From Bacteroidota bacterium (lineage in GTDB: Bacteria; Bacteroidota; Bacteroidia; B-17B0; Aurantibacillaceae), in NCBI GenBank assembly GCA_019638705.1, contig JAHBTI010000005.1:1-64000 (forward strand): a DNA stretch of 64,000 nt, written 5' to 3'. Under the pieces are notes generated by a model, which saw only the letters and a program-made list of their open reading frames with translations, did no database searches and was not told the origin of the DNA. The translations under genes were made by a program, and so were the position numbers. Shown piece by piece: positions 20,415 to 27,807 of the stretch (positions within the stretch are counted from its first letter, which is position 1; every line of letters starts with the position of its first letter).

Positions 20415-20422
20415 TATATTTG
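20415..20422 (+). promoter_or_regulatory. -7 promoter-like TATATTTG
   Basis: Perfect TAnnTTTG directly ahead of the GTG start proposed for the TPR membrane protein, implying a leaderless or nearly leaderless transcript. No TTG at -33. Confidence 0.35.
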
Positions 20423-20425
20423 CGT

Positions 20426-22312
20426 GTGTTTAAAAACTTTTTCAATCTTTTGTCAAAACACCTTGTGTTGAGTGTTGCGCTCGCCATCACATTCATTGTT
20501 TATTTTAAATTTTTGTTTTTCTCTCACATCAGTTGGGACGACCCCGAAATGCTGTTCCGCAACAAAGATGTAAAATCGTTTAACCTCCTTGCGCTCTTTA
20601 CAAATCATTATGTGGGAAATTACATTCCCGTTACCATGTTGTTTCACGCAATCTCTTGGTTTATTTTCGGCAGCAACGATTGGGGGCATCATTTGTTGAG
20701 TATTTTGTTTCATCTCACAAACGGTGCATTGGTTTATGTGTTTGTTCAGCGCTTATTTAAAAACCAAAACATGGCGGGAATTATTGCTGCCGTTTTTTTG
20801 CTTCACCCTTTGCAGTTGGAAAGCGTTGGTTGGATAAGCGAATTGAAAAACGTTGTTTCCACTACCTTTTATTTGGCTGCGCTGATTTGTTATGTTCGTT
20901 TTAGTGCGGCTGTCATTCTGACGAAGGAAGAATCTCAACGCAACAAAACAAATGCTTCGTTCCTCAGCATGACAATGAACAAAAACTATTTGCTCACAAT
21001 TTTATTTTTTGTGTTGGCGTGTTTGTCAAAATCCTCTGTGGTTGTGTTGCCGCTTACGTTGATAGGAATTGACATTATTCTCAGTCAAAAATTTTCTTTT
21101 AAGTTTTTTCTTAATAAAATCCCCTTGTTTTTGATTTCACTTTTGTTTGGTATTATCAATGTAAAAACACAGGCGGCAGATTTGTTTATCAATCACTCGC
21201 ACGAATTTCCTTTTTATGAAAGAATTGGCTACGCGGGTTTTGCTTTGGTAAAATACGTTCAACTGTTTTTGCTTCCGTACAATTTGAGTGTGTTATATCC
21301 TTATCCGCCAAATAAAATTTTGGCGTTTGTGATTGGATTTATTTTTATCGCAGCATTACTCGTTTTGCTTTTTGTATTGGTGAAAAAGAAAAATTTGACT
21401 TTGTTTTCACTCATACTTTTATGCCTTGTAAACCTTGCGTTGGTGCTGCAATTTCTGCCTTTCGGCGAGGTGTTGTATGCAGACAGATATATGTATGTTG
21501 CAGTAATATTTTTTGCTTTGCTTGCAATAGTCTTGCTTTCAAAATTGAAAATCAATTTTCAAATCACAACTTATGTGCTGATGTTTATTTTAGGTGCTGT
21601 AACTTTTGTGAGAGCCAATGTTTGGAAAAACAGCGCGACGTTATATTCCGACATTTTGAAAAAATTTCCAAACTCCTTTGTTGCATTGAACAGTTTGGGC
21701 GCGGAACTCATGTTTCAAAACGAAGATGAAAAATCATTACAATATTTGAATAAAGCCGTTGCCGTTTCCCCGCAAAACTATAAAGGCTACTACAATCGCG
21801 GATTGTTGTATTTAAAAAACGGAAAAGCGGAATTGGCTTTGCGAAGCTTGAATCAAGCCATTGAAATTTACGATTACCCGAAAGCTTATGTAGCAAGGGC
21901 TTCGGCGTATTATATGCTACAAGATTTTTCAAAAGCAATAAACGACATCAATCACGTTTTGCAAACAGACGCAAACAATGCAAAAGCACATTTTGTTTTG
22001 GGAAATTGCTACAATGATTTAAACCAATTAGAACAAGCCTTGAACGAATACAATCTTTGCATTGCGATTAACGATGAAGAAGCGGATTTTTATTTTAAAC
22101 GTGCGATTGCTTGGGGCAAAAAACAAGATTTTAATTCGTGCATTTCTGATTTGGAAATGTGTTTGCGTTTAAATCCGAAATATTACGAAGCCTACTATTG
22201 GCGTGGTGTAGCAAAGGTGAACTTAAAACAAAATCCTTGCGAAGATTTTAAAATTGCTGCGCAACAAAATTACGAACCTGCGGTAGTTGCTTATAATAAA
22301 TATTGCCGCTAA
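20426..22312 (+). CDS. polytopic membrane protein with C-terminal TPR repeats
   Basis: About 628 residues. About ten membrane helices fill residues 10-400, with the lumenal-loop motif SWDDPEMLFRNKDV and the HPLQLESVGWISELKNV stretch of the TMTC/O-mannosyltransferase-like family. Five or so TPR units follow (residues 420-620). A protein glycosyltransferase role is possible, but the donor and acceptor cannot be deduced. The start is uncertain: no ATG precedes the first helix, so GTG 20426 (or TTG 20420) is used. Residues around 165-185 are encoded by a 62-bp palindromic repeat. Confidence 0.75.
   Translation: MFKNFFNLLSKHLVLSVALAITFIVYFKFLFFSHISWDDPEMLFRNKDVKSFNLLALFTNHYVGNYIPVTMLFHAISWFIFGSNDWGHHLLSILFHLTNGALVYVFVQRLFKNQNMAGIIAAVFLLHPLQLESVGWISELKNVVSTTFYLAALICYVRFSAAVILTKEESQRNKTNASFLSMTMNKNYLLTILFFVLACLSKSSVVVLPLTLIGIDIILSQKFSFKFFLNKIPLFLISLLFGIINVKTQAADLFINHSHEFPFYERIGYAGFALVKYVQLFLLPYNLSVLYPYPPNKILAFVIGFIFIAALLVLLFVLVKKKNLTLFSLILLCLVNLALVLQFLPFGEVLYADRYMYVAVIFFALLAIVLLSKLKINFQITTYVLMFILGAVTFVRANVWKNSATLYSDILKKFPNSFVALNSLGAELMFQNEDEKSLQYLNKAVAVSPQNYKGYYNRGLLYLKNGKAELALRSLNQAIEIYDYPKAYVARASAYYMLQDFSKAINDINHVLQTDANNAKAHFVLGNCYNDLNQLEQALNEYNLCIAINDEEADFYFKRAIAWGKKQDFNSCISDLEMCLRLNPKYYEAYYWRGVAKVNLKQNPCEDFKIAAQQNYEPAVVAYNKYCR
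20912..20973. repeat. 62-bp palindromic repeat inserted in frame in a gene
   Basis: It begins GTCATTCTGACGAAGGAAG and ends CGTTCCTCAGCATGAC. The two ends are inverted repeats of each other with about four mismatches in 22. The same length and end sequences occur in the intergenic copy at 26919-26980. Here it encodes about 20 residues in a loop of the TPR membrane protein without breaking the frame. Confidence 0.8.
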
Positions 22313-25493: not shown

Positions 25494-26906
25494 ATGAGTG
25501 AGTTTGAAGACGACGCAGAAGGATTTAACGACAAAGAGTTTGAAGAAAATTTAAGGTTATTTGAAGATATGCAAGCCAGCGGCAGCACGCATTTTTTTGA
25601 TGCTGACGACCTTGAGCAAATCATAGATTATTACCTGCAATGGTTGAATTACGACATGGCTAAAAAAGCCATTGATTACGGCTTGGAACATTTTCCGTAT
25701 TCAACTATTATCAAAATCCGTTACGCACAATACCTTTCCAGCCAGCACTACACACGCGAAGCACTTGCTGTTTTAAACGATGTGGAGCAAATAGAACAAA
25801 ATAATTTTGAACTCTATATGGCTCGTGGCTACATATACAGCCAAATGGGACTTGGCGAGCAAGCCATTGAAAACTTTAAAAAAGCAATTCCTTTGTCTGA
25901 TATGCAGGACGAAGTGTATGTGGCTTTGGGCATTGAATTTTTGAACGAAGACAAGCCCCACGATGCTATGTATTATTTCAAAAAAGCAATTAAAATGAAC
26001 CCGAAAAACGAAGCGGCGTTAAATGAACTCTCGCTTTGCTTTGATTTGACGGGGCGTGCAGACGAAGCCATTTCTTTCTTTGAGCAATACATAGATAATC
26101 ACCCTTACAGCTATTACGCTTGGTTTAATCTCGGTTTGGGGTACGCGCGTTTGGGCTTGTTTGAAAAAGCGGTGGAAGCTTACGATTACGCCATTGCCAT
26201 TAACGAACAATTCAGTTCGGCTTATTTCAACAAAGCAAATTCTTTGGCGCAGTTAGAGCGATACGAAGAAGCTATTGAAGTTTACAAAGAAACATTTAAG
26301 TACGAAAACGCCGACGCCGCCACTTATTACTACATTGGCGAGTGTTACGAAAGCATGGCGCGTTTTGAAGAAGCGTTGGTGAATTACAACAGAGCCACAA
26401 AAATTGATGCTGCTTATGCCGATGCGTGGTTGGGAATTGGTGTGGTGTTAGACGCTTTAAACCGTTTGACTGAAGGCGTTCATTACATAAAAAAAGCCAT
26501 TGAAATAAATCCCAACGAGCCTGAATACTGGTATGTGTTTGCCGAAGTGCAGGAAAAACTCGGCTTCATTGAAGAAGCAGCTATGGCGTTTCAGCGAGTG
26601 ATAGAATTAAATTACGCCGATTTTGATGTATGGTTAGATTATTCGGAACTTCTGCATCACGCGGGTTATGTGGACGATGCCATTGATGTATTGCGACAAG
26701 GCATTGAGCAATTTCCCGATGTGGCAGAATTGCAATACCGTTTGGCGGTGTTGCTGTTGGAAGACAGCCAACGCAAAGAAAGTTTGATGTTTTTTGAAAA
26801 AGCCTTGCAAATGGACTTTAGCAAATACAAAGATGTGTTTGAATACGCCCCCGTTTTAGCGAATGACAAAGAACTTTTACATTTGATTTCCAATTTTAAG
26901 AAATAA
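25494..26906 (+). CDS. TPR repeat protein
   Basis: 470 residues made almost wholly of TPR units (about eleven), for example YFNKANSLAQLERYEEAIEV and AWFNLGLGYARLGLFEKAVE. No signal peptide or membrane helix, so cytoplasmic. The N-terminus is very acidic (MSEFEDDAEGFNDKEFEENL). Homologous proteins are common in Bacteroidota; the partner is unknown. It is followed by a 62-bp palindromic repeat. Confidence 0.8.
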   Translation: MSEFEDDAEGFNDKEFEENLRLFEDMQASGSTHFFDADDLEQIIDYYLQWLNYDMAKKAIDYGLEHFPYSTIIKIRYAQYLSSQHYTREALAVLNDVEQIEQNNFELYMARGYIYSQMGLGEQAIENFKKAIPLSDMQDEVYVALGIEFLNEDKPHDAMYYFKKAIKMNPKNEAALNELSLCFDLTGRADEAISFFEQYIDNHPYSYYAWFNLGLGYARLGLFEKAVEAYDYAIAINEQFSSAYFNKANSLAQLERYEEAIEVYKETFKYENADAATYYYIGECYESMARFEEALVNYNRATKIDAAYADAWLGIGVVLDALNRLTEGVHYIKKAIEINPNEPEYWYVFAEVQEKLGFIEEAAMAFQRVIELNYADFDVWLDYSELLHHAGYVDDAIDVLRQGIEQFPDVAELQYRLAVLLLEDSQRKESLMFFEKALQMDFSKYKDVFEYAPVLANDKELLHLISNFKK

Positions 26907-26918
26907 AAAAATCCGTAT

Positions 26919-26980
26919 GTCATTCTGAGGAACGAAGAATCTGTATTTTTGGGAAGAGATGCTTCCTTCGTCAGCATGAC
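26919..26980. repeat. 62-bp palindromic repeat, intergenic copy
   Basis: It starts GTCATTCTGAGGAACGAAG and ends CTTCCTTCGTCAGCATGAC. Same length as the copy inside the TPR membrane protein gene at 20912. It could also act as a transcription attenuator after the TPR gene. Confidence 0.75.
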
Positions 26981-27009
26981 AAATGATAAAATTTTAATAA
27001 AAACAATTT

Positions 27010-27807
27010 ATGGCTAACTATAATTTTAATTTACCGAGCTTGCCCGAACGTACCGCAAGACCCCGCACAAACGGTGTAACTATGGTAATGGACAAAGGCA
27101 TCAGCTTGCGGCAAGCCGAAGATTTTGTAAGCGTTTCAAGCGACTATGTTGATTTTGTGAAATTGGGTTTTGGTACATCAATCATTACAAAAAACGTAAA
27201 AGAAAAAATTAAACTGTATCAAAACGCAGGCATGAAAGTTTACGTTGGCGGCACTTTGTTTGAAGCCTTTGTTATCCGCAACAAGTTTGACGATTATTTA
27301 AAATACATTTCTTCGCTTGGGCTTGATGCCGCCGAAGTAAGCGACGGCAGCATTGAAATTGACCACGATAAAAAATGCGAATACATCAACCAACTTTCAA
27401 AAGATTATACCGTGTTGAGCGAAGTGGGAAGCAAAGAAGAAGGCGTAATTATTCATCCGGCGCGTTGGGTAAAAATGATGCAAAGCGAATTACAAGCAGG
27501 CTCGTTTAAAGTAATTGCCGAAGCCCGCGAAAGCGGAACGGTGGGCATTTTCCACAAAAACGGAAGCGCGCACGGCATGTTGATTGACCGCATTGTAAAC
27601 AAAGTAAAAAACGAAAACATTATTTGGGAAACACCGCAAAAAAGCCAGCAGGTTTATTTTTTAAAAATGTTTGGCAGTAATGTAAACGTGGGCAACATTG
27701 CCGTTGATGATGTTATTCCCTTAGAAACCTTGCGCTTGGGGCTGCGCGGCGATACCTTCTTTACATTTTTGCCCGAAGAAATGAAACAAAATTCAGAGAA
27801 CATATAA
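27010..27807 (+). CDS. comA: phosphosulfolactate synthase
   Basis: 265 residues matching the ComA barrel family: RPRTNGVTMVMDKG, DYVDFVKLGFGTS, VYVGGTLFEAF, AAEVSDGSIEI, VIAEARESG and NVGNIAVDDVIPLE. The enzyme adds sulfite to phosphoenolpyruvate to give phosphosulfolactate. In methanogens this leads to coenzyme M; in bacteria the product is probably used for sulfolactate or other sulfonates. No comB or comC is nearby. A rhodanese gene follows, which may be chance or a shared sulfur theme. Confidence 0.88.
   Translation: MANYNFNLPSLPERTARPRTNGVTMVMDKGISLRQAEDFVSVSSDYVDFVKLGFGTSIITKNVKEKIKLYQNAGMKVYVGGTLFEAFVIRNKFDDYLKYISSLGLDAAEVSDGSIEIDHDKKCEYINQLSKDYTVLSEVGSKEEGVIIHPARWVKMMQSELQAGSFKVIAEARESGTVGIFHKNGSAHGMLIDRIVNKVKNENIIWETPQKSQQVYFLKMFGSNVNVGNIAVDDVIPLETLRLGLRGDTFFTFLPEEMKQNSENI

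Follow-up and report, generated by a model that had tools for sequence, protein, structure and literature searches.

An inverted repeat lying in frame within the gene for a membrane protein with TPR repeats, at positions 20912-20973 of a 64,000-nucleotide stretch of Bacteroidota DNA (hereafter the window), is very probably a head-to-head heterodimer of CGTC-type, TGTC-tagged REP hairpins. About 36 dimers of its family are scattered over this genome, and its insertion into the gene would have been near neutral. The element spans 20911-20974 once the conserved outer T/A is counted, and the explanation, in which movement, transcription and a protein product are presumed, rests on sequence and a structure model. 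The insertion is real and well supported; the repeat is of an ordinary kind, already known to enter genes, and the present case is a solid example. The case is of interest as one in which orthologues prove that a dispersed non-coding repeat has been turned into protein sequence in Bacteroidota, with three more in the same genome.

The host gene comprises 630 codons when counted from the first TTG, the true start being uncertain, and its plus-strand open reading frame runs through the whole element, TGTCATTCTGACGAAGGAAGAATC-TCAACGCAACAAAACA-AATGCTTCGTTCCTCAGCATGACA. The host protein (P0001) matches TPR_1 in Pfam (6e-20) and, weakly and below the cut-off of that family, PMT_2 in its membrane half (1.7e-4), and Foldseek listed mostly TPR-containing structures for it. 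Aligned with 23 same-genus orthologues of 48-63% identity, it carries residues 158-177 opposite a gap of exactly 20 residues in every one of the 23. Five distant homologues also lack these residues (28 homologues in all), and the 20 residues are therefore an in-frame insertion private to this genome. All 102 columns that are invariant among the orthologues are kept in the host protein, and signs of gene decay are accordingly absent. The AlphaFold2 model built on the alignment (mean pLDDT 88.7) places the insert at the tip of a helix-turn-helix, where pLDDT is 61-67 for the two blocks that contain residues 161-180 and about 90 or more for the blocks flanking them.

The original prediction had held that the element adds about 20 residues in frame between helices and that these would be missing in relatives; both statements are borne out, the former by the orthologues together with the structure model and the latter by all 23 same-genus orthologues and the five distant homologues. 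The residues were not seen to be conserved in orthologues that lack the repeat ends. Alignment and predicted fold together confirm that a dispersed repeat was inserted in frame, at what appears to be a tolerant spot between helices. It is extremely improbable that the segment is instead an ancestral loop lost by the relatives, its likeness to the repeat being a coincidence or the result of selection for an mRNA hairpin. The open frame, and nothing else, speaks for such a loop, whereas all 28 homologues, distant families included, are without the residues and both arms match the genome-wide repeat at 0-1 mismatch.

Table 1. Features of the host gene, of the two repeat pairs in the window and of the further in-gene copies elsewhere in the genome.
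Feature	Location	Strand	Details and basis
Host gene, membrane protein with TPR repeats	20420..22312	+	ORF list, Pfam, 23 same-genus orthologues
In-frame head-to-head REP pair	20911..20974	+	Codons 160-181 of P0001, read as (A)AVILTKEESQRNKTNASFLSMT
T-type arm, TGTC-ATTCT-GA-C-GAA-G-GA-AGAAT-C	20911..20934	+	Arm parse, covariation
Spacer separating the in-gene arms, not common to other copies	20935..20950	+	Spacer list
G-type arm, TGTC-ATGCT-GA-G-GAA-C-GA-AGCAT-T	20951..20974	-	Arm parse
Second pair, intergenic	26918..26981	+	12 nt past the stop of TPR gene 25494-26906, 29 nt ahead of the co-directional ORF at 27010
T-type arm of intergenic copy, core G-GAA-C	26918..26941	+	Arm parse
G-type arm of intergenic copy, core C-GAA-G	26958..26981	-	Arm parse
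Sensor histidine kinase	C16		Carries CHADEGSISDSSFLRMT; gap of 16 residues in 17/17 relatives
HupE/UreJ-like membrane protein	C25		Carries CHFEERKISKDASYRQHD; net +8 residues versus orthologues
Glycosyltransferase with GT28 C-terminal domain	C46		Carries CHSERNEETQTTRCFVPQHD; net +12 residues versus orthologues

Comparison of the two copies in the window, at 20912-20973 and 26919-26980, upheld the statement that they have equal length and equal ends (GTCATTCTGA...TCAGCATGAC). The two arms of the in-gene element are complementary to each other. Since each element is built of arms that are inverted copies of one another, the similarity search matched the two window elements in inverted orientation (84% over 64 nt). 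The arm cores are exchanged between the copies, the in-gene element having C-GAA-G in its T-arm and G-GAA-C in its G-arm and the intergenic element the opposite. An Rfam scan of the window gave no match. Of the description as a 62-bp palindromic element, the long inverted pair stands and the unit does not: the unit is a 24-nt REP hairpin, two of which are joined head to head, and across the genome the total length ranges from 51 to 66 nt, with variation in both the spacer and the arm cores.

Each arm follows the layout TGTC, AT, x-y-z, GA, core, GA, z'-y'-x', AT, C, and constitutes a hairpin of its own, with the TGTC tag, a 5-bp stem, tandem G-A, a closing pair and a small loop. When 30 distinct arms, drawn from this genome and from relatives, are compared, the six named pairs show 96.7% complementarity versus 77.3% in shuffled arms (0/500 as high), and the intra-arm covariation score is 0.53 versus 0.19 in shuffles. 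Pairing falls to 25-56% when the partners are slid by 1-3 columns. In the same 30 arms, position 7/21 is seen as T-A, G-C and C-G, position 9/19 as T-A and C-G, and position 12/16 as C-G, G-C and T-A, and the pairing rule also holds in the longer cores GC-GATA-GC, AC-GATA-GT and C-GATA-G. Because GTCAT and GA served as anchors in the arm searches, the constancy of those letters is partly by construction. From the compensatory changes inside the arm it follows that every arm forms a hairpin of REP type, with TGTC at its foot, tandem G-A and a small loop. Thermodynamic folding of single arms gave little signal (z between -1.4 and +0.3), because the G-A pairs and the triloop remain open in the predicted structures; the support for the arm hairpin is covariation, not folding energy.

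The arms are also paired in a regular manner. Of the dimers whose cores are 5 nt long, all 25 have arms that are unlike each other at positions 7, 12, 16 and 21, where about 12 homotypic dimers would be expected if arms were randomly paired; swapped cores (C-GAA-G in the T-arm) occur among the 25 solely in the in-gene dimer. The partners of the G-type arm in two relatives, G012 and G033, are CCC/GGG or TCC/GGA arms, again different from it. Since comparable dimers always join two different arm types, the long palindrome carries mismatches. A reading of the element as one long palindrome was rejected: the places of its four regular mispairs coincide exactly with those showing covariation inside the arms. 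Perfect long palindromes may be lost or cut, in which case only mismatched pairs would persist.

Across the 3.22-Mb genome, a 23-nt arm pattern allowing up to three mismatches gave 69 matches, and the reversed-pattern control gave none. Within the window, a looser arm pattern matched eight times against 2.2 expected (0/100 shuffles reached eight), the four true arms alone having 0-1 mismatch. When 37 fetched stretches and the window were parsed, 36 two-arm elements were recovered, as well as several single, broken or tail-to-tail arms, single arms and tail-to-tail pairs being seen at L049, L058, L063 and L064. In the parsed dimers the spacer between the arms is 5 to 19 nt long, the CT tail counted, and is mostly different in each copy; shared spacers are found in a 90-bp triple tandem on C34 and among a few very short spacers. 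The 36 copies are of shared ancestry, and the heterodimer rule and the arm counts are to be read as drawn from events that are not independent.

We regard it as highly unlikely that the element is a MITE-like transposon, 62 bp long and bounded by terminal inverted repeats, which a standard DDE transposase inserted as one unit with target duplication. The long inverted arms of similar total length would suit such a transposon, but the arms are self-complementary hairpins with internal covariation, the spacers vary between copies in length and sequence, single arms and tail-to-tail pairs exist (the four loci named above), and inspection of the listed flanks by eye revealed no evident target duplication. 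Integron attC sites, considered on account of the hairpin with its variable loop, were set aside.

The triple tandem, at G000:C34:26458-26700 (L046:2960-3204), consists of three near-identical dimers at 90-bp spacing between divergent genes and is the sole local amplification seen. Additionally, a second repeat family with the core TCGAGCGAAGTCGAGA occurs as inverted pairs at L037:762-839, L049:858-910, L060:682-733 and L067:4004-4058; its stems differ in sequence yet stay complementary (AGTTC/GAACT, ACGTC/GACGT, ATTTC/GAAAT).

Genes around the dimers were called in 6-kb stretches by a simple caller based on a codon score, the calls of which are approximate. On these calls, 23 dimers lie between co-directional genes, mostly 5-13 nt past the upstream stop, seven lie between divergent genes and none between convergent genes. 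The caller placed six dimers inside an ORF, including L035, L040 and L047, and missed the HupE copy. A search of the genome for further in-gene copies, as the original prediction had suggested, confirmed three more with same-genus orthologues (Table 1), bringing the dimers inside genes to 4/36 confirmed and two more possible (L040 and L047). The hydrophobic segment adjoining CHADEGSISDSSFLRMT in the histidine kinase is probably a membrane helix. For the HupE-like and GT28 genes, the net gain is below the element length (24 versus 55 nt and 36 versus 61 nt, respectively), and hence either part of the native loop was lost upon insertion or that loop was shorter beforehand; insertion into these two genes need not have been simple and clean.

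At L040:2962-3024 (BatD-like) and L047:3000-3059 (lipoprotein), dimers overlap the N-termini of secreted proteins. Through GCATGACA, the element provides an ATG that is in frame with the signal peptide, and it may thus supply the start codon. These two were kept out of the confirmed set, as the orthologues begin near the element end and the element supplies the ATG, and the dimers may lie ahead of the real start codon.

Frame +1 contains a stop in 36/36 dimers on either strand, and the remaining two frames are open in 36-61% of the dimers, depending on strand and frame. With one frame always stopped, a dimer can enter a gene in at most two of the three phases and with a net length that is a multiple of three; the four confirmed in-gene cases use frames beginning V-I-L or C-H. 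An insertion in a gene would persist only if it alters the length by a net multiple of three, and the phase used would be one that avoids the invariant TGA of the third frame. The added peptide would fall in a tolerant loop, here the predicted tip of a membrane helical hairpin, and would probably have no function of its own, and the insertion would be near neutral.

We give little credence to the view that the insertion has been put to use, with the charged segment altering the host membrane protein or the hairpin regulating the host gene. It is retained in an intact gene, and Di Nocera 2013 speculates on altered function of some REP-tagged proteins (PMC3733652), but the four in-gene hosts are unrelated and their peptides differ. 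Given four in-gene cases in a Bacteroidota genome, the process is not confined to bacteria with an intracellular life such as Rickettsia.

Compared by published description rather than by the consensi of the four families, the element closely resembles the heterodimers of CGTC (TGTC-tagged) REPs. The paper of Di Nocera, De Gregorio and Rocco (2013; PMC3733652) reports CGTC REPs from Bacteroidetes and inside genes, and describes an unpaired CGTC (or TGTC/CCTC) tag at one hairpin end, A and T with their complements as the first two stem pairs, an 8-9 bp stem, a 4-5 nt loop and a short unpaired 3' tail that is mostly CCA. It further places these REPs mostly in intergenic regions near 3' ends, between co-directional or convergent genes, states that they lack a dedicated transposase and that most families prefer heterodimers, the mismatched pairs being suggested to escape hairpin nucleases. 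The repeats studied here are alike in the CGTC/TGTC tag at the 5' foot (69 TGTC and two CGTC among 71 dimer ends, with GTCAT fixed by the search and the first letter free) and in the AT at the first two stem positions (A-T in 29/30 and T-A in 28/30 distinct arms plus two T-G, the 5' letters being fixed by the search and the 3' letters largely free). Both occur mainly as head-to-head dimers and as heterodimers (36 dimers here, with 25/25 comparable ones heterotypic), both have many units just downstream of genes and intragenic dimers coding for 20-30 residues, and both are without a dedicated transposase, no arms being found here within 1.5 kb of the four Y1_Tnp genes. Convergent intergenic copies, by contrast, are absent here. 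Stem and tail accord less neatly with the published description: the stem consists of five Watson-Crick pairs, tandem G-A and A-G and 1-2 closing pairs (8-9 positions if G-A is counted, the GA being fixed by the search), the loop is 3-4 nt as against 4-5 nt, and a short 3' tail is there, although nearly every dimer has CT and then a variable base in it rather than CCA.

The likening of the element to Rickettsia palindromic elements proved apt, as PMC3733652 places R. conorii RPE-4 and RPE-6 in the CGTC REP superfamily. These elements and ours are palindromic repeats in frame in protein genes and absent from orthologues, and the putative sequence relationship between them rests on this superfamily assignment. 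Unlike in Rickettsia, intragenic copies are a small minority in the present genome. For Bacteroidota, in-frame REPs have precedents: CGTC REPs are known there according to the same paper, and in-frame REP insertions have been described in the subclass 2.4 tnpA-REP genes, a subclass abundant in Bacteroidetes (PMC6006769). In the latter, REPs are in frame as they are here, but they are GT[AG]G REPs within their own transposase gene. A literature search with the DNA string of the repeat returned only apparent chance matches in unrelated papers.

GTAG REPs, BIMEs and REPINs with their RAYT genes share with our repeats the small tagged hairpins, the inverted pairs and the two arm types. Mobilisation of the RAYT type, with a genome-encoded Y1 HUH transposase recognising the hairpins as it does the GTAG REPs in E. 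coli and Pseudomonas, is nevertheless unlikely. The genome has four Y1_Tnp genes, one at G000:C44:65611, and the tag-plus-hairpin build is like that of GTAG REPs, but the GT[AG]G tag is absent and replaced by TGTC. Further, GTAG REPs flank their cognate tnpA-REP gene, whereas no arm was found within 1.5 kb of any of the four Y1_Tnp genes (L068-L071). Arms are carried by 62 of 196 good class-level Bacteroidia genomes, and no Y1_Tnp match was found in G063, the richest in arms (219, on the single 3.93-Mb contig C1), or in G033 (24 arms), whereas many arm-free genomes have one. A link between the arms and RAYT genes was not found in this transposase search, which covered the Y1_Tnp family, and the result accords with the absence of a dedicated transposase stated for CGTC REPs (PMC3733652). 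A transposase may once have been present and since been lost. The Y1_Tnp (RAYT-like) gene at G000:C44:65611-65958, just past the end of the window, is without TGTC arms around it.

Under the preferred REP heterodimer explanation, some enzyme would spread the dimers to new sites by copying them in the form of single-stranded or hairpin DNA. We tentatively suggest, as an idea that is somewhat doubtful at present, that Bacteroidota TGTC REPs spread without a Y1/HUH transposase, through an unrecognised enzyme or through hairpin replication errors, with obligate heterodimers as the signature. Genome G063, with its arms on a single contig and no Y1_Tnp match, fits such spread. Together, G063 and G033 bring into focus which agent mobilises CGTC-type REPs and are genomes where it might be sought, G063 being a good test bed. 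In G132 and G161, which belong to the same family and another genus, arms such as GTCATTCCGACCGTAGGGAGGAATC occur in same-orientation arrays, often with a spacing of about 78-146 bp, unlike the head-to-head pairs of the genome studied here.
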